Below, piece by piece: positions 2,563-37,326 of a stretch of DNA of 37,326 bases. The translations under genes were made by a program, and so were the position numbers. The notes below the pieces were generated by a model. That model did not search any database. It was not told where the DNA came from and was given only the letters and a program-made list of their open reading frames with translations. The stretch spans positions 1 through 37,326 of IMG/VR virus record IMGVR_UViG_3300028892_000792. One strand, given 5' to 3'. How positions within the stretch are numbered: the stretch's first letter is position 1; each line of letters starts with the position of its first letter. The stretch comes from a virus.

Positions 2563-2816
2563 GAGCCCAGCCATCAATCTTCAAGCAGAAGTCCGTCCTA
2601 CTTAGCCACCAACTTCCAACGTCACCTCCATATTGACCAGATGCTGAGAAAATTTTTCTGCTCCTACTCTTCTGCTCGTACCCTAGCCAAGATCAGGGCT
2701 TACAGAAAAATTGCAAGAAACGTGCCAAAATCTTGAATTACGGCGAAAATGCGGCAGCACGTTGAAATCATTGACGAATTTCGTTTGAAAATATCTTTAA
2801 AATACCTTATTTCGCC

Positions 2817-2845
2817 TTGATTTTGCCACATTTCGCGCTCATAAT
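2817..2845 (+). promoter_or_regulatory. rightward promoter before the structured RNA region
   Basis: TTGATT, 17 bases, CATAAT. Four ATTTCG motifs (about 2777, 2809, 2830 and 2856) and the inverted pair GGCGAAA/TTTCGCC surround it and could be operator sites. Transcription would start near 2852, just before the first GC-rich stem of the putative RNA. Confidence 0.5.
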
Positions 2846-2851
2846 CGAAAA

Positions 2852-3465
2852 TCGAATTTCGCCCCGCCACTGGGGCAGTTCGATACCCGCCACTGTCCGC
2901 TGGGCCAGACGGGTCGTTCGGAAGCCTCGTTATCCGGTGCTTAGACGCTCCCCACATTGTGGGACTGCACTGGAGACACAAGGACACTACGCTATGTTGG
3001 CTAACTCCAATGGGCCTCTGCGTAGTCACGACCTAGACTTCCCAGCCTTGTACGAGGTGTCAGCGTTGAGATGCCCACCAGTTAGCCCCCACGCTTGTGG
3101 GATAGCGCGAAGCGGATGTGCTACCGACACACCCTTCAGGGTAAGGAAGGGCGGAAGTCAGAGTTCAAATATCTGACTGAGGTGGCCGCGAAAGGTATAC
3201 AGTGGGTTGACCCCCACACCGACGTAGGTTGCCCTCGGGACAAGCCCCCGTGAAGCATTAACCCACTCCGTATCCTTCTACGCTTAGATGTTCACCGTCA
3301 TGCGGTACTGCGTACAAGGTAAGATAGAGTGGTGCGGTGTGAAGAACGGATGAAGGATGTTCTGATAATTGGGGGAACCACTGCTGTTGACTGGTATTTC
3401 TATACCTATTGAGATAGGGGGAGCGTGGTGTGTTTTAACGCCTCCCCCTAATCTCTATATTTCAT
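2852..3465 (+). ncRNA. large structured noncoding RNA candidate, about 610 nt
   Basis: The region is GC-rich next to its flanks and full of nested complementary arms. Seen by eye: GCCCC/GGGGC (2862-2877); ACCCG/CGGGT (2884-2913); CCCAC/GTGGG (2951-2963); ACTACGC/GCGTAGT (2986-3026), enclosing TTGG/CCAA; CCCAC/GTGGG (3088-3100); GTGTC/GACAC (3057-3130); AGTCAGA/TCTGACT (3157-3179) with a T-loop-like GTTCAAATA; AGTGGGTT/AACCCACT (3201-3267), extended by ATAC/GTAT and AAGG/CCTT; CCTTcTACGC/GCGTAcAAGG (3274-3319), enclosing ACCG/CGGT; AGTGGT/ACCACT (3329-3381), enclosing AGAAC/GTTCT; GGTAT/ATACC; and a long terminal hairpin. Size, branching and phage setting recall the GOLLD and ROOL RNAs, but I cannot confirm membership. 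Confidence 0.7.
3411..3455 (+). terminator. 3' terminal hairpin of the structured RNA
   Basis: GAGATAGGGGGAGCG pairs with CGCCTCCCCCTAATCTC through about 15 base pairs with two single-base bulges. TATATTTCATTTATC follows, only moderately T-rich. It may be a terminator or simply the closing helix of the RNA, with partial read-through into the 3518 gene. Confidence 0.55.
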
Positions 3466-3517
3466 TTATCTATTTATCTACCCCCTGAAACAGGTTATTT
3501 ATGTAAAAGGATAGGTT

Positions 3518-3715
3518 ATGCACCTATATGTAAAGGCCACCACCAAATATGGCACTATCAGCTGGGCCACTTTCAGTTTAGGTGGTGCTGTCAATCTCTA
3601 CCATCATATGAAGAGTAAGCCTGAGTATAAAGAGGTTCATATCCTTGACTATCACAGCAATGATGTTACTGAGGAAATGATTGATGTACACAGTACACTC
3701 GCACATTCAAGGTAG
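3518..3715 (+). CDS. 65-aa protein, paralogue of the following 54-aa gene
   Basis: The ATG follows AAAAGGATAGG. The product (MHLYVKATTKYGTISWATF...) has the pattern GTISWATFSLG...YHHMKS...VHILDYHSNDVTEEM, which recurs in the next gene. It looks like a small alpha/beta protein with no membrane segment. Family not recognised. It is the first rightward gene after the structured RNA and leads into the amidoligase block. Confidence 0.65.
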   Translation: MHLYVKATTKYGTISWATFSLGGAVNLYHHMKSKPEYKEVHILDYHSNDVTEEMIDVHSTLAHSR

Positions 3716-5652: not shown

Positions 5653-5668
5653 TTCAGGGGAGGGAGAG

Positions 5669-5863
5669 ATGCGCAAACCTAGTCGAGACCGTTCGATAAA
5701 GAGGATGAAGGGTCACAATAGGTTTGCGCACTCTCTTGAAGACCCCTTCTTTAGACATAAGAGAATATCCTCTCAAAAATTATATACTAGGAAAATTAAG
5801 CACCCTGGCCGATTGGATCGGGGGGCAGAGCACGTTGAGAGTGAAAAGGACCTACCCAAATGA
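5669..5863 (+). CDS. 64-aa highly basic protein
   Basis: GGGAGGGAG precedes the ATG. The N-terminal two thirds is rich in Arg, Lys and His (MRKPSRDRSIKRMKGHNRFA), suggesting nucleic-acid contact. It contains one copy of the octamer GGGGGCAG at 5821. The stop lies in an ATGA overlap with the next gene. Confidence 0.6.
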   Translation: MRKPSRDRSIKRMKGHNRFAHSLEDPFFRHKRISSQKLYTRKIKHPGRLDRGAEHVESEKDLPK

Positions 5864-17644: not shown

Positions 17645-17673
17645 TTGACAAAATATTAAAAGCGGCGTATAAT
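17645..17673 (+). promoter_or_regulatory. consensus promoter of the recombination/replication operon
   Basis: TTGACA, 17 bases, TATAAT: a full consensus. The leader of about 45 bases holds a small hairpin (GCGT/ACGC, about 17689-17702) and AAGGAGGG before the ATG at 17727. It should drive the Sak4-like and putative SSB genes strongly. Confidence 0.85.
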
Positions 17674-19024: not shown

Positions 19025-20098
19025 ATGAGCACATCATTAGTATTAAATCCTGTCGGCCCTCATCTACCCACCTCAAATCCTAGTCGCCTCGCATTTGTGG
19101 GGGAAGCCCCCGGTGCGCAAGAGATTATGGCAGGGGAACCTTTCGTAGGTAAGGCTGGGGAGGAGTTCAATCGGTGGCTCCATCATGCTGGACTCAAGCG
19201 TGAGGAACACCTCATCACCAACGTCTTCAAGTACAAACCGGTACAAAACAAGATTGCAACTTTCTTTGTCAAGAAAACTGCGGCCAAGAGGATAGAGGGA
19301 TGGAAGCCTCTGTTTCCGTACCATTCCACCCAAGGGTTTTGTATACAAGAGAGGGAGCCTGATCTACTCATACTAAGGGAGGAGTTAAGAAGTGCCAACA
19401 TCAAAGTCGTGGTCGGAATGGGAGCAACAGCGCTATGGGCTTTTACAGGCCTATCAAAAATCACTGCTCACCGGGGAACTATTTTCACTTCGGAGTTCTT
19501 TGACAGAATACTGTTCATACCCACTTTCCATCCCTCATATATCCAACGCGGGAACTTCGACAAGCGGTCCTTTGTTATGGCCGATATTCTCAAAGCCAAA
19601 GGAGAACTAGACTCTGACGCAGTGACTTATACTGAGCGGGAGATACGAACCGAACCCACCTTTGATGATGCTTTATATGAGTTGGGAATGATGGTAGGTA
19701 TTGAAGAGCCTATAGCCTGTGATATTGAGACAGGCTGGGATCAGATAACTTGCATAGCTTTTTCACCTACCCCAACTCAGTCATTAGTAATCCCTTTCTG
19801 GGACAGTAGTAAGCCAAACAATTGTTACTGGGACTCGGAACTGCGCGAAACCATGGTGTGGGATTCAGTTAAGGCTTTACTTGAAAGTGATACCACTTTC
19901 ATCTTTCACAACGGGGCCTATGATATCATGTGGCTCAAGGAACGAATGGGCATCAATGTCCACACCCCCTTTGAAGACACCATGCATATGCACCACGCGA
20001 TGCAACCTGAATTACCCAAGGCCCTCGGGGTTTTAGGATCATTGTACACCAAGGAAGCTAGCTGGAAACATTTGGTCAAACACGTAGAGGAGAAATGA
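19025..20098 (+). CDS. uracil-DNA glycosylase fused to the N-terminal part of a PolA 3'-5' exonuclease domain
   Basis: Residues 1-190 are a family 4/5-type uracil-DNA glycosylase: VGEAPGAQE (26-33) and FHPSYIQRGN (HPS at 169-171). The four cluster cysteines of family 4 are absent; only Cys106 is in the domain. Residues about 225-350 begin the DnaQ-like exonuclease of a family A polymerase: ACDIETG (Exo I) and FHNGAYDIMW (Exo II). The chain stops after WKHLVKHVEEK, before Exo III. The missing motif is at the start of the polymerase at 21729, about 1.6 kb away. No clear ribosome site precedes the ATG. Confidence 0.8.
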   Translation: MSTSLVLNPVGPHLPTSNPSRLAFVGEAPGAQEIMAGEPFVGKAGEEFNRWLHHAGLKREEHLITNVFKYKPVQNKIATFFVKKTAAKRIEGWKPLFPYHSTQGFCIQEREPDLLILREELRSANIKVVVGMGATALWAFTGLSKITAHRGTIFTSEFFDRILFIPTFHPSYIQRGNFDKRSFVMADILKAKGELDSDAVTYTEREIRTEPTFDDALYELGMMVGIEEPIACDIETGWDQITCIAFSPTPTQSLVIPFWDSSKPNNCYWDSELRETMVWDSVKALLESDTTFIFHNGAYDIMWLKERMGINVHTPFEDTMHMHHAMQPELPKALGVLGSLYTKEASWKHLVKHVEEK

Positions 20099-20580: not shown

Positions 20581-20907
20581 ATGGATATTACAATTTCTGA
20601 TAATGCGGCGAAGCGTATCTCTGAGCTAGTCGCCAAGGATGGAAGGTCTGAACTAATGCTTAGAGTCTTAATCTCTGGCGGTGGGTGCTCGGGCTTCACA
20701 TGTGAATTTAGTCTAGAAGAGAAACAGACTAACCTAGACATAGAATTTATACATCAGGGCAGCAAGGTCGTTGTGGATATGGTGTCTCTGGGTTATGTTA
20801 AGGGTTCAGAGTTAGACTTCGTAGATGAAGTTATGGGATCGTATTTCTCCCTCAAAAATCCTAATGCCAAATCTACCTGTGGATGTGGTGCTTCCTTTGC
20901 TGTATGA
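20581..20907 (+). CDS. IscA/ErpA/HesB-like A-type iron-sulfur carrier
   Basis: The 108-residue protein is full length for the family. It has ISDNAAKRISEL at the start, LISGGGCSGFTCEF (first conserved Cys) in the middle, and STCGCGASFAV (the CxC pair) at the end: the three Cys that bind iron or a cluster. A-type carriers move Fe-S clusters from a scaffold such as IscU to client proteins. The same window carries iscU. The gene sits inside the stretch that splits the polymerase, upstream of an independent promoter. Confidence 0.9.
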   Translation: MDITISDNAAKRISELVAKDGRSELMLRVLISGGGCSGFTCEFSLEEKQTNLDIEFIHQGSKVVVDMVSLGYVKGSELDFVDEVMGSYFSLKNPNAKSTCGCGASFAV

Positions 20908-21260: not shown

Positions 21261-21751
21261 TGGCATATGACTGGGACTACGGCGATGCATGGGATACGGA
21301 CTACAATATACCCGGTCCTGATCCTGAGAACCCTACATTAGGATCAATTACGTTTACAGAAGAGAGCGTAGGTACTGAACCCACTGGCTTCAGTTCAGAC
21401 TACTACCAGTTACCGGATAATGCAACTGAACTCCAAGACCTAATTGAATACAAGGAAATGAACTTTGCGCTTGGAAATATCTTCAAGGCTTGCTACCGAT
21501 GTGGCTCAACTAAGACACCTATCTATGATCTTGAAAAGATTCTATGGTTTGCAGAAAGAGAACTCGAAAGACTTCATCCAGAAGCTATCCGCTGCGACAT
21601 CCCCGAAGACGCTACGGAAGAGGATATCCCGGCCATCGCAGACCGAATAGCAAAAGAGATTCAGATAAAATTAGACAAGCGTATTGTAAACGAGACATCC
21701 GATAAGTTGATAGGATTCAGAGGGGCCTATGCAGGTAAGGAAAAATACTGA
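21260..21751 (+). CDS. DUF3310-like protein
   Basis: The segment ELQDLIEYKEMNFALGNIFK, then RCGSTKTPIYDLEKILWFAE, matches the DUF3310 pattern in which a GN.FK core precedes a DL.K...W helix. The family is found in many phages near replication or nucleotide genes; its function is unknown. An acidic N-terminus and a C-terminal extension (IPAIADRIAKEIQIKLDKRI) surround it. It overlaps the polymerase start by 23 bases. Confidence 0.65.
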   Translation: MAYDWDYGDAWDTDYNIPGPDPENPTLGSITFTEESVGTEPTGFSSDYYQLPDNATELQDLIEYKEMNFALGNIFKACYRCGSTKTPIYDLEKILWFAERELERLHPEAIRCDIPEDATEEDIPAIADRIAKEIQIKLDKRIVNETSDKLIGFRGAYAGKEKY

Positions 21752-23270
21752 CGACATCAGCGACCTTACAAAGCAAGAAGTTCTTTGGCACTACTGTGGT
21801 ATAGATGCTGCAGTAACTAGAGAACTTTTTGATAATTTTAAACCGAACGTAGAACAAAACTGCAAGCGCACCTATGAGTTTGAGATGGCTATGCTTGGTC
21901 CGGCCTTCAGTATGATGCGACGGGGACTTAGGGTGGACAAAGAGGGGATGAAGATAGTTCATAGAACCCTAAGAGCTAAGGAAAGTAAGCTTGGTAGTCT
22001 ATGGCAAACAATAACTCATCCCTTAAGTGATGGAGATATTAATCCTGCCAGTGGTAAACAATGTATGGAACTACTCTATGGTACATTGGGTATCCCTACC
22101 ATGTATCAGCGGACTGGTTCGGGGGGCAGCCCACGTCCAACCCTAAATAGGGCCGCGCTTGAGAGGATCATAGACAAATATCCCAGGGGTAAGCTCCTCG
22201 CTCGCATTCTGCTGACACTCAGGGATTTGGCTAAAAAGTTACAGGTTTGTAAAACTAAACTCGATCCAGACGGTAGGTTACATACCTCCTTCAAGGTGGC
22301 TGGCACCAATACATGGCGCTGGTCCTCTAGCAGTACAGCCTTCCGCACCGGCACCAACATGCAGAACATTACGAAAGAACTGCGCCGCATGTATGTGCCA
22401 GACCCTGGATATAAGTTCTTCTATGCGGATTTAGATCAGGCTGAGTCGCTGGCCGTGGCCTACCTGTCGGAGGATGAGAACTATATAGCAGCGTGTGAGT
22501 CACCCGACCTGCACACTGCCATCGCCAAGCAGATTTGGCCTGACATTGTGACGGACAGGGACACCGCAGAGCTACCTTACCTACACGGCCTCAGTTACAG
22601 GGACTTAGCTAAGCGGGCTGGCCACGCCACCAACTACGGCTTGACCCCTGGCTCACTGCAGAACCATCTGAACTTGAAGCTCAGGGATGCATGGAAGTTT
22701 CACCTTAATTATATTGGGGGTGCAATTCCTTGTGATCAGATTAAACGTTGGCATGATCAAGTACCTGAGGATGGTTTTGACAAGATGGGGGATTTTGGGG
22801 ATGGGGTTGGAATGCTAGAGGTTGAAGGTGCTTTCCCTGGTATTAGGCAGTGGCATAAGGGTGTGTTAGCTAAACTTTATAAAGATGGTAGTCTTACCAC
22901 CCCCTTAGATTTTACCCGCCGATTCTGGGGCAATCCCGCTGCCCATAAGGTAATCAGAGAAGCCATTGCGTTTGTTCCCCAGTCCACTATCGCATGCCTC
23001 CTACACATAGGTATGTATAGGGTGTGGAGGGAACTGGACCCCAAGGATGTGCAAATATTATGTAATGTGCATGATGCTATCCTTGGACAGATAAGGGAGG
23101 AAGTGTTTGATGAGTGTATTGAGGATGTACTTACTTGCATGCGTAATCCTATTCCTATTTTGGATAGGACTCTTAACGTACCTGTTAGCGTAGAGGTGGG
23201 GTATAACTGGTCGCCAGTTGACCCACACAAAAAGATATTCGCTGACGGAAACCCGGATGGATTAGGATAG
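21729..23270 (+). CDS. polA: family A DNA polymerase carrying the Exo III remnant
   Basis: The 513-residue chain opens with LWHYCGIDAAVTREL (Exo III: Tyr22, Asp26), the last motif of the proofreading domain whose first two motifs are in the glycosylase fusion at 19025. The polymerase motifs follow: WRWSSSSTAFRTGTNMQNI (about 197-215), motif A ADLDQAESLAVAYLS (Asp234), motif B RDLAKRAGHATNYG (about 291-304) and motif C NVHDAIL (His448, Asp449). By eye the residue matching E. coli Phe762 is His, and the Glu after the catalytic Asp of motif C is Ala. GAGGGG precedes the ATG. The two chains probably assemble into one enzyme. Confidence 0.9.
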   Translation: MQVRKNTDDISDLTKQEVLWHYCGIDAAVTRELFDNFKPNVEQNCKRTYEFEMAMLGPAFSMMRRGLRVDKEGMKIVHRTLRAKESKLGSLWQTITHPLSDGDINPASGKQCMELLYGTLGIPTMYQRTGSGGSPRPTLNRAALERIIDKYPRGKLLARILLTLRDLAKKLQVCKTKLDPDGRLHTSFKVAGTNTWRWSSSSTAFRTGTNMQNITKELRRMYVPDPGYKFFYADLDQAESLAVAYLSEDENYIAACESPDLHTAIAKQIWPDIVTDRDTAELPYLHGLSYRDLAKRAGHATNYGLTPGSLQNHLNLKLRDAWKFHLNYIGGAIPCDQIKRWHDQVPEDGFDKMGDFGDGVGMLEVEGAFPGIRQWHKGVLAKLYKDGSLTTPLDFTRRFWGNPAAHKVIREAIAFVPQSTIACLLHIGMYRVWRELDPKDVQILCNVHDAILGQIREEVFDECIEDVLTCMRNPIPILDRTLNVPVSVEVGYNWSPVDPHKKIFADGNPDGLG

Positions 23271-27226: not shown

Positions 27227-27607
27227 ATGTCATATAGCGACAGCGTTATAGATCACTACGAAAATCCACGCAATGTAGGGTCCTTTGACAAGAACGATAC
27301 CTTAGTTGGTACTGGACTGGTTGGAGCCCCGGCCTGTGGTGACGTTATGAAACTGCAGATCAAGGTGGTTGACAATATTATAAAGGATGCCAAGTTCAAG
27401 ACCTTCGGATGCGGCTCAGCTATTGCGGCCAGCTCCCTCTTAACTGAGTGGGTTAAAGGCCGAACCCTAGACGAGGCCACCGAAATTAAGAACACAGATA
27501 TTGTTGAGCATCTATCCCTTCCACCTGTTAAGATTCATTGTTCTGTGTTAGCTGAGGATGCAATCAAGGCTGCCATCGCTAACTATAAGAGTAAGAATGG
27601 CAATTGA
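27227..27607 (+). CDS. iscU: IscU-type iron-sulfur scaffold protein
   Basis: Full-length IscU at 126 residues: YSDSVIDHYENPRNVGSF at the start, GAPACGDVMKLQI (first Cys and the following Asp), FGCGSAIAASSLLTEWVKG (second Cys) and LPPVKIHCSVLAEDA (third Cys). The LPPVK string just before the third Cys is the segment bound by the HscA chaperone in bacteria, so the phage protein may use the host Isc machinery. Expressed from its own consensus promoter behind a structured leader, with AGGAGAAAG before the ATG. With the IscA-like carrier at 20581 it gives the phage two steps of Fe-S assembly. Confidence 0.93.
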   Translation: MSYSDSVIDHYENPRNVGSFDKNDTLVGTGLVGAPACGDVMKLQIKVVDNIIKDAKFKTFGCGSAIAASSLLTEWVKGRTLDEATEIKNTDIVEHLSLPPVKIHCSVLAEDAIKAAIANYKSKNGN

Positions 27608-30966: not shown

Positions 30967-30995
30967 ATGTTACCACAAATAAGATTACCTGTCAA
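30967..30995 (-). promoter_or_regulatory. leftward promoter inside the 3' end of the polyvalent gene
   Basis: The minus strand reads TTGACA, 17 bases, TAACAT, AACAA, ATG. It overlaps the final codons of the large gene and places the start codon at the expected transcription start. Confidence 0.65.
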
Positions 30996-33900
30996 GCACC
31001 TTGTTGTACCTTGCTTCTATCCTCTGCATCTGTCTACGCAGTCGGCGCGGCATTCTCCGTCCAGTGCCGGGCGATAGTCTATCTCTCGTTGCCCGGGTGA
31101 TGGTACGAATTCTAGGGTTAATGATGTGCTCTGGCCTAGCTGTTTGGTTATGTTCAAACACTTCTGCCATGATAGCATTCATATCGGCCCTAATATCTAC
31201 TTGCTCTGCAACATTTCCAGCCTGTATAGCGTGGATCAAATCAACATTGAGGTTGGTCAGCTGCTTTGTGACTCTGTTTTGGTAGCTGGAGTTAGCTCGG
31301 ATCAAACTCTGCCGGACAAATTCTAGCTCTCTAGCCTTCCCCAGTTTGGTGGAGTTGAAGCCGAAGAATTTCTTAGCTTGATCCATGATATCAACTTCTT
31401 CAGGCGTTAGGAGTTGGTGACCTGACAAGCTCTTGACACCGTACCTACCCATGAACACCGATTCAGCTGCATTGCGTAATGCAACAGGTAAAATACGCAT
31501 GATAGCCTCGCCGCCCCTACCATCTTTCCACAACTGGAAGGCGTCTCGTGGGTTGCCGAAGATCAGAGACCCTGGCACACCCATGGTATCGTAGATGTCA
31601 CCACGCATACCAGCCACCGCCTTAACAAGGGGGATGCCGGGGAGGGTGATGGCTAACCTACGTTGTACATCCATACCAGTATAGGTGTTGATGGCCCCCT
31701 TCTCAAGGAAGTCTGCAATGTGTCCAGGCAATCCTGCCTCTTCAACCAGTTCCTTGAAGACTAGACTAAGGTCATGGTCAAGACCATCTCCAAACACACG
31801 CCTACCAAATCGTACTATTTCATCAATGTCATCAACACCAGGGATACCTCTAGCCCCCGATGCTAAGAAGATCATGAGAAGCATAAGGGCAGCTGCCTTC
31901 TTACCTTCCTTACCGTGGGCTCCTCTAAGCAATCTAAAGACCAACTCTGTAGTTGCCCATGAGTAGTGGGCGAACTGGAAGATGGATGCACCAATGGGGC
32001 CACGCATGAACATTGCCCGGTTCTCCTTACCGAACTGTTGGAAGACCTCTTCAACACCATACAAAGAAATATCACTGGCATTAGGCTCGGTTCGATCAGC
32101 AAAGGCTATGGAGTTTTTGAGGATGTTAGACGAGTCCTTGAACACTGCCCTAGCTCTGTTTAGATTTTCCTTGTTCTGCATCAATCTATACATAGCTAAA
32201 CTTAGAATCATCCGTGACGATGTTTCCATAGTACTAAACATACCTGAGATAGCTACCTGAGTTACGTGATCAACAGACAGTCCATGTTTATTGAGGGCTA
32301 TGTTCAACATATGGGGGGAGGAACCAATGCCACTTTCTTGCACCAAAGAGTAAGCTTTTAGAATACCGTTTTCAATTCCTCTAAGGAGAAATGCTTTTTC
32401 ATCATCGGTGCCTTGAAACTTTTCCATGTTCAGTAGCACGTCACGCCAAGACCTACCTGAAGATAAGTCAAACATCTTCATGACGTCAATACTAGCTTTG
32501 GCAAGCTCCGCAGCCCCTACATGGGCTTTGGAGACACCAGTAATCATCGTCATCCACGGCAGACCAATCATAGGTATGGTCACCGTCTGCAAAATGGCCG
32601 AGGAGAAGTTCAGTCCGATGTACATAATGAAGCCAGCGAGTCGGAGGTGGCGTGCCTCTTGTGCTGGGTCCATGACATACTGCATGGTTTTCTCAGCATA
32701 GACTTTCATCTTGCCGCTCAGCTCAAGGATGGCATCATTAGCGCGATGAGAGTATTTCATTTCGGCGGCAAGTTTAGCCATACCCGAAGCGTATATTTCG
32801 ATGGACTTAGATATGTCCAACTCATATCCTGCTACCAGCCTACGGTCCTGTAGGAGACCATCAATGCCCCTCTCACCTAATATCTTAAGTAAGGCTTTAC
32901 GAGTTGCTGTTGCTGATACCTGCTCTGAGGCAGATAGCATAGAGAATAACGTATCGACATTAACCTGGGCGGCCTGTAGTCCTTGCTTAGTGGCATCACG
33001 ATCTGACGATCCTGCCTTAATTTCAAATTCCTCTTCTGGATATTTTTCGCGTAGCTCCATCATTTTCTGACGAACGATACGCTCTTTCTGCTTCTGGGTT
33101 ATATCAAACAGTTTAAATTTTATCTGTTGGTATTCTATGGCTGAGTTAGGGGAGGGACCTTCCTGGCCGGAGGTTTGATTCCATACCTTTTTACTCCATA
33201 CTCCTACATAATGGCTACCCTCACGAATAACATTCATGAAGTCTTTCTTTTTGAAGTTCTCAATCTGTTCCATTTGTCTGTTGATGCGCTTCATATTCTC
33301 TAGAGTCTCGGTTAAATCTGTGAACCTTGCCCTATCCTTAGAACTAAACTGACCAGTGGGAATTTGGACACCGCCTGCAATAGCTGCATGCCTAGCTGCA
33401 ATCATCTCTTCATCTGACTTAAGAATTAGGTCTAAGAAGGACTGTTGCAGGGCGCGTTCATTATCGAAGAGTACCTGGGCGGCATAGTTCTCAGTAGGTC
33501 GGGGTTTATCTGACAGTGTCTTACGTTCCCCCAGTCCCTCTACCAGTCTTTCTACTTTGGTGGAGAATTTATAGATAGGCATATCCCGATGGGCTGTGTT
33601 GGCAGTGGCTGTAAGCCAACCATACTTAAATGCCAGCTCTCTTAAATCAGGATCACCCATATACTTAGTCTCTAACTTAATCCACGCATGCTCTGAAGGC
33701 TTAATGCTTAAGTTGAGGGCAGCCATATTCCATAGGGTTTGCAGCTGACTTTGTATGTTAGCCAGTTCCACATCGGTGCCAGCTGTGTCCATATTCTGCT
33801 CACCAAACTTATCAACCAATTGAGCTGTTTGCTCACCCTCCAACTCTCGAACGGGGATGCCGTCAAAGGTACTGGTACCCTTTGGAATGAAACTCAGAGC

Positions 33901-36900
33901 TTGGTTGAGTATGTCTTCTGACTGGATAAGGCTGCCTGTCCTAACCTTATCAATCAGATGTAGATACATTTCCTGCATTTGAACATAGGCTCTGGCTTCG
34001 GGACCGGCGAGGAGGATAGTCTCTCCACCCACCAACGTGCTGCCCTTACCTCGGCCTACAGCATCTACCATAACGCCATCTACTTCTATCTGAGAGTTGA
34101 CAATCTCTATGGTAGCGCCCTTCCAATAGTCCTCGGATAGTTGTGCCTCGGGGCCGTCCTTTTCTCTGGCCTTAGCTATTTCAGTATCGTAGTCTGCATA
34201 CTGACCAAAAGCCTGGGGCCTATACCGCTTACCCTGCAACAGGGCAGCTTCAATAGCCCGTGTTAAGCTCAACCACTGCGTATCATCAGTTTTAATTGCA
34301 GAAATGTCCGTTAAGTATTTTAGGAGGCCTTCCGTAGTTTTCTGTGTATCCTTTCGGATGCGATCAATCAAGGCCCAGAACTTAGCGAACCCTGGATGCT
34401 TGTCAGCTAAGTGTCGGGAGGTGTTCATGATGCTATTGAACCAAGTGAAGTTATCCACGCCAGTAATCTTGGCGGCATCATCTAATTCCTTGTCTCCTGA
34501 AACACGGGTGTGCAGTTTACCAAGGGCATCCGTTAAGTATTGGACCGCCCAGTGTCTATCAATTGGCGGCGCATCGTTGTGAACATTTTCCGAGATACGG
34601 GAGCGCGAATGCATAGCATCATTGATGGCTCCGAAATCGGCATTGTATATTGACTTAACCTGCCATGGATCAAAAACCATGTAGGAGTTATGGAACTGTT
34701 GGAGCCTCTCACTGGTCTCTACCTCAATGGTGTTCTTGTATATAAACCCATCGTACCCCTTAGCTTTTAAGTGAGACCGGATGATGTTGTTTCGTTGAGC
34801 CTGGGTTTTGTCTCCCCTCAGCTTACTGAGTATAACTGCCCCTTCTTCTGCACTGAAGACAGGAATGACATCAGCCATGGCCTGCTCAACCAACGCCTCC
34901 ACCTCGGCTTCATCTAACTTAGGATTGTTCTTAGTTATCTTCCGAGACAACTCTAACCTGAGTACAGTCATCTCCTCTGTATGGAAACCCTCGGTCAACA
35001 ACTTGACTATCTGGGATGGGTTCCACTTATTCATATCCGGCATGCGTAAGGGATTTTTAATATGCAAGAAAACAGGAAAGATGTTGAATCCCTGTCTTGC
35101 TGCTATATATTCATCTACACGCTTGTTGAAAAACTTGTTGATGGCTACAGTTTCTGGGGTTATAATATCTGTATCCAGCGCGGCGGCTATGGATTCCAGG
35201 CCCATGGCCTCTTCCATGTCTCTCCGCACATCCCGCCTAGCCGCGCTCTCTAAGACAGACCCACCCTGAATCTTGTTAGCATGATCAGATGTACCAAAGT
35301 GAACACCTAGCTCAGGTCCTCTGTTAAATCTGATGACACTTCCAAGGGGCCCCCAGCTAGCAGGATCAAAGGTACCGTGGAACATGACCATGGGATACCC
35401 ACCGATAGTTCGCACAATACTTGCGCCGAACCAGTTGCCCAGCTTCTTAAGTCTTTCGGGGGTTCCTGGCTCTCCAATGCTCCACTTCTCTCCTGGGAGT
35501 TCTAACTTCTCCTTGGTCAATCGGGGCCGCATACCCACTAGGCCTGACTCAATCCGACCAAAGATGTCCTCGGCGGTATCGAACCCCTGATTGGTTACGG
35601 CCTCTAGTATGTTCTGTAGGAAGTCCTTGATGCGTTGGAAGAGGCCATGGACAGGCGATTTCGAGGGGAGGGAGGAGGGTGAGCCGGTCCAGTTCTCAAA
35701 GGCAACAGCGATAGCTTCTTCGTTCAGCTGCTCGTTAGTGAGGTTGTCCTCAGCATACAGAGCGTCAATGTCATACAGCTTACGCCAGCCCTTAGACATA
35801 CGCTTCAGGGTCAGCCACTCAGTCTTGGTGAACAGTCCCATCTCTTTCATGGCGTGAATGACTTCGTGCTTAGCGGTGCCCAGCCGGTTTGGATTGTTCA
35901 TAGCAATCTCAATCAGGCCGCGTGTCCAGTTACCCATGATCCGGGAGTTGGGATCGGTATTGAAGTTAGGGTCAAGGAGTTCCCACGGCATAGCCAGTGT
36001 AACGTCCTTAAGGCCGATAGTGTCTAGCCACGCCCTCACTTGGTCGAAGGCGTTCTCCAGCTTTTCAATCTTCTCTTGATGAGCGGGTATTCTGGACTTT
36101 TGGCCCCACCTCTCATACTTTTGAGCACTCTTAGAAGGCGTAGCTGCTTCAGGTAGGGGCTTCTTAGGAGTTGTTGGAGAGCCCGGTCCTCGTTCCTTCA
36201 GCTTAGCAGCTATGTATTCTGCTTCAGTGAGAGTGCGCCCCTCACTGGCAGGGCCTGCTGACCATACCATCTCAAACCCCTCGCCTGCGGCAGGTGCTCT
36301 ATAACCTGGACGCCCAGCGTCAACCATCTCAATGGTGGCAGCGTCGGCAAAGTTCAGGGGAAATTCTAGGGCCTTACTTTCAGGCTCGGTCCCGGCATTG
36401 ACAGCCTGCTTAGACAGGACAGCCCGCATAGCTAAGCCTCTGTCTCTAACAGATAAGGCTACTGCTTGCTTAGCTCCTGCTGAAAGTCTGTGCTCATTCC
36501 TAAGAAACCAAGGATAGAACTCATCCATGAAGCGTTCATTATCTACAGCGGTATTGGGATACAGCCGCTGAAGATACTCATCCATGATGAGGGCATTGCG
36601 AGGTAGAATTCCAGCCTCAATACCCTCTTGAGGAGTTAGGTGTTGTGTGGTGCCATCACTTACCTCGGCTCCCTCTACCTTAGGAAGATTGACCTCCACT
36701 GATGGGTCGGGCACACCTGGAATAGGCATGGCGGCACCCAGCGCGGGCAACTGCCGCAGGTCCTCGGCTAATCCAGGACTGGCTTGGGGGGCAGAGGGCG
36801 TTTCTGCCTGGGCCAGACTCTTCGCTTTTAGTTGGACATTGATGTCCCTCATCTTTTGGGCAAGTAGTCCTCGGCCCTCTGTGTCCCCTTCCGGGAGCGC

Positions 36901-37326
36901 ATCATACTCCACTTCAACACTATCCCATAGCTTACTCAGGTCCTCATGGGACATATTTTCGTACAGAGCTTCTTGCGGGTCTAGGCGGGCGGCCTTCTTC
37001 TTTTGGAACTCCTTAGTGACCTCATCTATGCGATCCTCTAGGGGAGCCCAGACTTCTTCATCAGTCGCGGCTTCATGCTCATCACTAAGCGTCCTGTGTA
37101 GGTCTTGAAGCTCCGACTCAGATAAGAGGGCAAGGTCCTGCTGAGCAACTTGCTGGGCCTGGGCTAGATCGGCCTCAACCTCCTGTATTTGGGGAATTGT
37201 GACCGCCTCCTGCCCCCTCTCATCAGTCGGAACCTGAACTGGTTCTATTTCGGCTTCATCTATAGGAGCGGTGACGGGACCGGTATCGAAGGGGATATCA
37301 CCTAGATCAGCCTGCTCCTGTCCTTT
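30985..37326 (-). CDS. very large polyvalent protein with metallopeptidase-like and ADP-ribosyltransferase-like domains (5' end beyond the window)
   Basis: The frame stays open to the right edge, 124 codons past the Met at 36954, so the product exceeds 2113 residues. Numbered from that Met: a metallopeptidase-like segment HEVIHAMKEMG (363-373) with NEEAIAVAFENW (411-422); an ADP-ribosyltransferase-like domain with MVMFHGTF (about 523-530), LGVHFGTSDHAN, PVFLHIKNPLRMPD, GYDGFIYKN and SYMVFDPWQVKSIYN; long helical stretches; hydrophobic segments (IMYIGLNFSSAILQTVTIPM; AALMLLMIFLASGA); and a C-terminal LPD38-like region (about 1700-1900). The layout is that of polyvalent proteins, which are packed in the virion and injected with the DNA. 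The N-terminus in the window is Gln/Glu-rich. Confidence 0.75.
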   Translation of the reverse strand, partial: KGQEQADLGDIPFDTGPVTAPIDEAEIEPVQVPTDERGQEAVTIPQIQEVEADLAQAQQVAQQDLALLSESELQDLHRTLSDEHEAATDEEVWAPLEDRIDEVTKEFQKKKAARLDPQEALYENMSHEDLSKLWDSVEVEYDALPEGDTEGRGLLAQKMRDINVQLKAKSLAQAETPSAPQASPGLAEDLRQLPALGAAMPIPGVPDPSVEVNLPKVEGAEVSDGTTQHLTPQEGIEAGILPRNALIMDEYLQRLYPNTAVDNERFMDEFYPWFLRNEHRLSAGAKQAVALSVRDRGLAMRAVLSKQAVNAGTEPESKALEFPLNFADAATIEMVDAGRPGYRAPAAGEGFEMVWSAGPASEGRTLTEAEYIAAKLKERGPGSPTTPKKPLPEAATPSKSAQKYERWGQKSRIPAHQEKIEKLENAFDQVRAWLDTIGLKDVTLAMPWELLDPNFNTDPNSRIMGNWTRGLIEIAMNNPNRLGTAKHEVIHAMKEMGLFTKTEWLTLKRMSKGWRKLYDIDALYAEDNLTNEQLNEEAIAVAFENWTGSPSSLPSKSPVHGLFQRIKDFLQNILEAVTNQGFDTAEDIFGRIESGLVGMRPRLTKEKLELPGEKWSIGEPGTPERLKKLGNWFGASIVRTIGGYPMVMFHGTFDPASWGPLGSVIRFNRGPELGVHFGTSDHANKIQGGSVLESAARRDVRRDMEEAMGLESIAAALDTDIITPETVAINKFFNKRVDEYIAARQGFNIFPVFLHIKNPLRMPDMNKWNPSQIVKLLTEGFHTEEMTVLRLELSRKITKNNPKLDEAEVEALVEQAMADVIPVFSAEEGAVILSKLRGDKTQAQRNNIIRSHLKAKGYDGFIYKNTIEVETSERLQQFHNSYMVFDPWQVKSIYNADFGAINDAMHSRSRISENVHNDAPPIDRHWAVQYLTDALGKLHTRVSGDKELDDAAKITGVDNFTWFNSIMNTSRHLADKHPGFAKFWALIDRIRKDTQKTTEGLLKYLTDISAIKTDDTQWLSLTRAIEAALLQGKRYRPQAFGQYADYDTEIAKAREKDGPEAQLSEDYWKGATIEIVNSQIEVDGVMVDAVGRGKGSTLVGGETILLAGPEARAYVQMQEMYLHLIDKVRTGSLIQSEDILNQALSFIPKGTSTFDGIPVRELEGEQTAQLVDKFGEQNMDTAGTDVELANIQSQLQTLWNMAALNLSIKPSEHAWIKLETKYMGDPDLRELAFKYGWLTATANTAHRDMPIYKFSTKVERLVEGLGERKTLSDKPRPTENYAAQVLFDNERALQQSFLDLILKSDEEMIAARHAAIAGGVQIPTGQFSSKDRARFTDLTETLENMKRINRQMEQIENFKKKDFMNVIREGSHYVGVWSKKVWNQTSGQEGPSPNSAIEYQQIKFKLFDITQKQKERIVRQKMMELREKYPEEEFEIKAGSSDRDATKQGLQAAQVNVDTLFSMLSASEQVSATATRKALLKILGERGIDGLLQDRRLVAGYELDISKSIEIYASGMAKLAAEMKYSHRANDAILELSGKMKVYAEKTMQYVMDPAQEARHLRLAGFIMYIGLNFSSAILQTVTIPMIGLPWMTMITGVSKAHVGAAELAKASIDVMKMFDLSSGRSWRDVLLNMEKFQGTDDEKAFLLRGIENGILKAYSLVQESGIGSSPHMLNIALNKHGLSVDHVTQVAISGMFSTMETSSRMILSLAMYRLMQNKENLNRARAVFKDSSNILKNSIAFADRTEPNASDISLYGVEEVFQQFGKENRAMFMRGPIGASIFQFAHYSWATTELVFRLLRGAHGKEGKKAAALMLLMIFLASGARGIPGVDDIDEIVRFGRRVFGDGLDHDLSLVFKELVEEAGLPGHIADFLEKGAINTYTGMDVQRRLAITLPGIPLVKAVAGMRGDIYDTMGVPGSLIFGNPRDAFQLWKDGRGGEAIMRILPVALRNAAESVFMGRYGVKSLSGHQLLTPEEVDIMDQAKKFFGFNSTKLGKARELEFVRQSLIRANSSYQNRVTKQLTNLNVDLIHAIQAGNVAEQVDIRADMNAIMAEVFEHNQTARPEHIINPRIRTITRATRDRLSPGTGRRMPRRLRRQMQRIEARYNKVLDR

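Follow-up and report, generated by a model that had tools for sequence, protein, structure and literature searches.

A candidate large structured non-coding RNA with a duplicated module in the longest intergenic interval of an environmental phage

Introduction

Does the widest gap between the genes of an otherwise gene-dense phage genome encode a structured RNA, and if so, of which kind? The question is raised by a locus in the IMG/VR virus record IMGVR_UViG_3300028892_000792, of which positions 1 to 37,326 were analyzed here (the window). A first-pass annotation had proposed a branched structured RNA of about 610 nt at positions 2852-3465, which might be a divergent GOLLD or ROOL RNA or else represent a new class. 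To our knowledge, very few large structured RNAs of phages have been described. ROOL is a homo-octameric RNA cage, and GOLLD, which is induced during lysis, is a homo-14-mer cage. The formation of RNA cages by both families has been reported, as has the size of many GOLLD members, which exceed 800 nt and carry a conserved 3' region (PMC12286853). In addition, kayvirus phages have been shown by RNA-seq to produce lncRNAs in abundance, with lengths from about 525 nt upward (PMC9241854, PMC7698491).

Results

The candidate element lies in a gap between divergent gene blocks

The window originates from a phage in an environmental virus survey. Five replication proteins were identified (a PD-(D/E)XK exonuclease, a Sak4-like protein, a UDG/exonuclease, a DNA polymerase A and a DUF3987 protein), and Caulobacter phage Kuura encodes relatives of all five in matching order, with identities of about 27-34%. 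DNA polymerase A is split into a UDG plus 3'-5' exonuclease protein (19025-20098) and a polymerase protein (21729-23270), which are separated by several small genes. Candidate IscA/HesB-like and IscU-like iron-sulfur cluster proteins, which would be unusual phage cargo, were noted by eye at 20581-20907 and 27227-27607. The minus strand encodes a very large protein of at least 1989 aa (30985-37326), whose frame is still open at the window end; its Pfam match to ART-PolyVal is below threshold, and its matches in PHROG are of unknown function. The left, minus-strand block further contains two paralogous 63-aa proteins (493-684 and 993-1184) sharing the pattern ..SGKS[VL]IR..GNQPVALDG[KQ]QVRVGVNVFQP..; a search of PHROG and Pfam with one of them returned no match. 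A strong inverted repeat, AGAGATGCGCAAACCTA ... TAGGTTTGCGCACTCTCT, occupies a gap without a codon-supported gene at 5653-5745, and no 200-nt fold of the contig is more extreme than the one that contains it (z -7.6).

The codon log-odds gene map, trained on 12 clear genes, is empty between 2529 and 3517, and with 989 nt this interval is the longest non-coding one of the contig by a factor of two. It is bounded by a minus-strand block ending at 2528 and by a plus-strand early block starting at 3518. Two ORFs cross the candidate element (2817-3176 and 2700-3029), both with negative codon log-odds (-0.09 and -0.13, whereas the short flanking genes tested scored +0.10 to +0.29), and neither matched Pfam or PHROGs at E = 1. 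As far as can be told from its letters, 2852-3465 is non-coding. Its G+C content is 54.6%, compared to 46% for the whole window and 41.8% just upstream. The location between divergent blocks, the absence of a credible gene and the high G+C content had all been put forward in the first-pass annotation and were borne out. The element lies where the G+C skew changes sign, a position that would also suit an element acting as DNA, e.g., an origin of replication or a divergent control region of the early genes in which the inverted repeats matter at the DNA level; however, the region is G+C-rich and not A+T-rich, and we regard such a role as quite improbable.

A duplicated module shows covarying helices

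The best new evidence for a structured RNA, and the main support for this reading, is a duplicated covarying module, a duplication that the first-pass annotation had not pointed out. A direct repeat (2939-2968 and 3282-3311) belongs to one structural module present in two copies on the plus strand. Module A (2933-2974) comprises an 8-bp helix, a 10/3-nt internal loop (UUAGACGCUC opposite ACU) and a 5-bp hairpin with a triloop. Module B (3274-3319) has the internal loop UUAGAUGUUC opposite ACU, and when folded alone both copies adopt the same arrangement of outer helix, 10/3-nt internal loop, 5-bp helix and triloop. The two internal loops share the consensus UUAGAYGYUC facing ACU and differ solely by two C/U changes. 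In the helices, by comparison, 6 of the 13 pairs are changed on both sides, and 96% of pair cells are standard; sliding the partner strand destroys the pairing, leaving at most 54% paired at every offset. Forcing the outer helix of module B costs 0.7 kcal/mol; its CCUU is shared with a long local helix at 3192-3277 (see below).

These copies were compared with shuffled sequences, counting 30-nt repeats that share helices and carry both-side changes. A 10-bp version of the module, with five both-side changes, was equaled or beaten by one of 3000 shuffles, and none of the other pieces of the same contig reached five such changes. The test was framed after the repeat had been seen and the direct repeat is not significant by sequence score alone, standing out only in combination with the shared pairing, and we therefore rate the module as good, not conclusive, evidence. 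The simplest reading of the sequences would be that the module was duplicated and that the copies then drifted within the limits set by pairing. On the plus strand, both copies have one G-U pair, the counterpart of which on the opposite strand is an A-C mismatch; this favors the plus strand and argues against a DNA-level element.

Local hairpins are stable, while the overall fold is established only partly

Outside the module, several local elements of the plus strand are predicted with high pairing probability. A hairpin at the putative transcript start (2851-2884; -17.8 kcal/mol, z -4.1, pairing probability 0.92-1.0) is followed by a second, CCCG/CGGG hairpin (2886-2913; 0.99). Further hairpins were predicted at 3088-3101 (CCCAC/GUGGG; 0.98, z -2.6), at 3132-3151 (CCCUUC/GAAGGG with an 8-nt loop; 0.98, z -2.7) and at 3393-3406 (GGUAU/AUACC; 0.96). 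The T-loop-like hairpin of the first-pass annotation, AGUCAGA-GUUCAAAUA-UCUGACU (3156-3178), was recovered with a pairing probability of 0.98 (z -2.3), its likeness to a T-loop resting on sequence only. The 3' boundary is probably marked by a closing hairpin at 3411-3455 (-25.8 kcal/mol, z -5.3), as strong as previously proposed. By these predictions, module A is well supported, as are the two terminal hairpins (5' and closing) and four internal ones (3088-3101, 3132-3151, 3156-3178 and 3393-3406).

The long-range arms fared differently. Those proposed earlier at 2986-3026, 3057-3130, 3201-3267 and 3329-3381 are truly complementary, but have near-zero probability in the minimum-energy fold, which pairs them with other partners. 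One such competitor is a long-range helix between GGCUAACU (2999-3006) and AGUUAGCC (3080-3087) with a pairing probability of 0.99. In a nested fold it competes with the arms at 2986-3026; a pseudoknot, a type of structure beyond the reach of the folding program, could accommodate both 2986-2992/3020-3026 and 2999-3006/3080-3087. The long local helix AAGG-U-AUACAGUGGGUU / AACCCACU-CC-GUAU-CCUU (3192-3277; z -2.1) is likewise an alternative to the global fold, its 8-bp core being forced at a cost of 7.4 kcal/mol. As forcing each of the earlier arms costs only 3.9 to 8.9 kcal/mol out of about 229, single-sequence folding cannot choose between these folds, and the modeled overall shape of the candidate RNA is established only partly. 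A partial repeat with a spacing of 125 nt (3054 and 3179) was judged by eye to be due to chance.

Pairing exceeds chance modestly

The folding z score of the whole element ranged from -1.8 to -2.8, varying with the chosen ends and the shuffles, and was similar for the opposite strand; 614-nt pieces across the contig gave a mean of -0.75 (sd 1.3), and 200-nt folding windows within the element were unremarkable. For calibration, the L. salivarius ROOL RNA, located by its Rfam model, scored -1.5 on the match strand, phage K lnc001 -1.9, and two 650-nt parts of lnc002 -2.9 and -4.4. Since genuine ROOL and phage K lncRNAs reach only about -1.5 to -4.4, the folding z score has little power, and the support from folding energy is the modest but not unfavorable result of a weak test. 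Counts of Watson-Crick arms, compared with dinucleotide shuffles, were modestly above chance: six perfect arms of at least 7 bp lie within 80 nt (2.2 +/- 1.4 in shuffles; 8 of 300 reach six), and 175 arms of at least 5 bp occur at any distance (142 +/- 11; 1 of 300 reaches 175).

A whole-element score of about -2 to -2.8 against that contig background would also be compatible with a non-functional or decayed sequence whose arms arose mostly by chance, as would the lack of evidence for conservation in the homolog searches described below. Against such decay stand the size of the gap, the largest in a gene-dense genome, the excess of arms and the covarying module with its frequency of about 1 in 3000, and we consider it improbable. 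The equal stability of the opposite-strand fold would also fit a DNA-level element. The earlier proposal of a structured RNA of about 610 nt holds for the most part, including its non-coding nature, its wealth of arms and its closing hairpin, but draws only modest support from the folding z score, and several of its listed arms are unsupported in the minimum-energy fold.

Transcription signals leave room for a cis-acting leader

A promoter had been predicted in the first-pass annotation; a sigma-70-like site (TTGATT-17-CATAAT, 2817-2845, plus strand) is present upstream of the element but weak, matching 9 of 12 consensus positions. Its predicted start, at about 2852, coincides with the foot of the 5' hairpin. 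The heptamer ATTTCGC occurs four times in 37 kb, and three of these copies (2809, 2830 and 2856) cluster around the promoter-like site on the plus strand, where they may serve as operator repeats (2809-2862). Two copies of CGAATTTCG, at 2775 and 2853, form together with this cluster a possible operator of an early regulator (2775-2862). The clustering of ATTTCGC would be in line with a DNA-level control element; however, the repeats are located at the promoter and not spread through the 600 nt. Stronger sigma-70 promoters are present on the contig at 17645 (12/12) and at 2562 on the minus strand (11/12), which suggests that the phage uses the host polymerase. The former, a perfect consensus (TTGACA-17-TATAAT, 17645-17673), lies upstream of the gene for the Sak4-like protein.

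At the other end, the closing hairpin is not followed by a T run and is not a canonical terminator, so that the element may not be separated from the early mRNA. The early gene at 3518 begins about 60 nt past this hairpin on the same strand, and a promoter search of 3440-3517 yielded nothing convincing (best 7/12). These features would be expected of the main rival explanation, a long structured 5' leader acting in cis to control translation, stability or read-through of the first genes of the early operon at 3518 instead of forming a separate RNA. Its length would, however, be very great for a leader, stable hairpins stand at both ends, and a cis-regulatory match in Rfam is absent. We consider a leader somewhat unlikely.

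Searches identified no relatives and no known RNA class

IMG/VR searches with the neighboring proteins led to two other records, one containing the same phage and the other a distant relative (IMGVR_UViG_3300020215_000086). The former, IMGVR_UViG_3300023215_000876, differs by 2 mismatches and one gap across 17.6 kb on the left side and is fully identical to window positions 2600-3600, and thus adds no comparative information. In the distant relative, a DNA search found no counterpart of the RNA and the module descriptor had no match; DNA searches of Kuura and of MW202733 were also negative. Nucleotide searches of INPHARED and PLSDB with the RNA returned chance-level matches of at most about 45 nt. 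Scanning IMG/VR and 84,980 genomes (GTDB) for patterns identified no homolog except the near-identical record: matches read in context lacked the module structure, alignments of the RNA to the loci were at chance level, and others shared a stretch of at most 20 nt. As such scans pick up only exact matches over short stretches, so that diverged relatives would escape them, this absence is weak evidence.

A scan of the element with the whole Rfam library was empty at the gathering threshold and at E = 10, and covariance models for GOLLD, ROOL, OLE and HEARO gave no match, those for GOLLD and ROOL also on the whole contig at E <= 10. In a positive control for ROOL, the same ROOL model recovered the L. 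salivarius RNA at 130.4 bits. A 23S-rRNA-like string on the reverse strand, CATCTAAGCG, was dropped as it had no rRNA model match. A divergent GOLLD or ROOL RNA missed by the Rfam models would fit the published class descriptions in size, phage origin and non-coding nature (PMC12286853). ROOL (RF03087; about 500-660 nt, ornate, phage-associated) and GOLLD (RF02032; a large ornate phage RNA) do resemble the element; however, neither model matches at E up to 10, and ROOL RNAs often, though not always, and many GOLLD RNAs lie near tRNA islands (PMC12286853), whereas the window contains no tRNA genes. We consider membership, as raised by the first-pass annotation, very improbable. OLE and HEARO are likewise structured bacterial RNAs of hundreds of nucleotides, but had no Rfam match here, and no partner gene of either, including HNH/IsrB-type, was found among the neighboring proteins tested.

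The kayvirus lncRNAs, two per genome (phage K lnc001 and lnc002; vB_SauM-515A1 lncRNA1 and lncRNA2), are comparable in several respects: they are about 525-1150 nt long, intergenic in phages, without an Rfam class (the phage K lncRNAs match nothing in Rfam beyond tRNAs) and similar in folding z score. In contrast to the G+C-rich element, they are tRNA-adjacent, A+T-rich and demonstrated by RNA-seq. The INPHARED searches revealed no sequence similarity between them and the element.

Discussion

The most likely assignment of the element is a discrete ncRNA of the phage, from a class not yet described, whose functionally nearest counterparts would be the kayvirus lncRNAs, GOLLD and ROOL. We give roughly an even chance to the proposal that about 2852-3455 of the plus strand encodes a discrete, large, structured ncRNA that acts in trans as a stable scaffold. 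Early transcription of such an RNA would start from the regulated promoter region at 2809-2862; a stable hairpin would bound it at either end, and several hairpin domains together with the twice-used helix/internal-loop/hairpin module would make up its body. The two near-identical internal loops might be equivalent docking sites for a protein or for another copy of the RNA, and the whole may function as a scaffold as GOLLD, ROOL and the kayvirus lncRNAs may. Transcription, the exact ends, action in trans and the docking role are what we infer from the locus. Counted against a discrete ncRNA were the weak promoter, the lack of a canonical terminator, the modest z scores, the lack of a homolog and the lack of nearby tRNA genes. 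A bolder version, in which, early in infection, copies of an RNA from a new ornate phage class unrelated to GOLLD and ROOL use the duplicated docking module to assemble with one another or with a protein of the phage or the host, appears rather unlikely.

We file the element as a candidate new RNA within the known kind of large phage ncRNAs; our confidence that it is a discrete RNA is moderate, and for any function it is low. It represents a concrete candidate missed by the current family libraries. An independent RNA of the size of GOLLD or ROOL with a reused internal-loop module would add another case to the question of why phages make such RNAs, and would also bear on whether multimerization is general among them.
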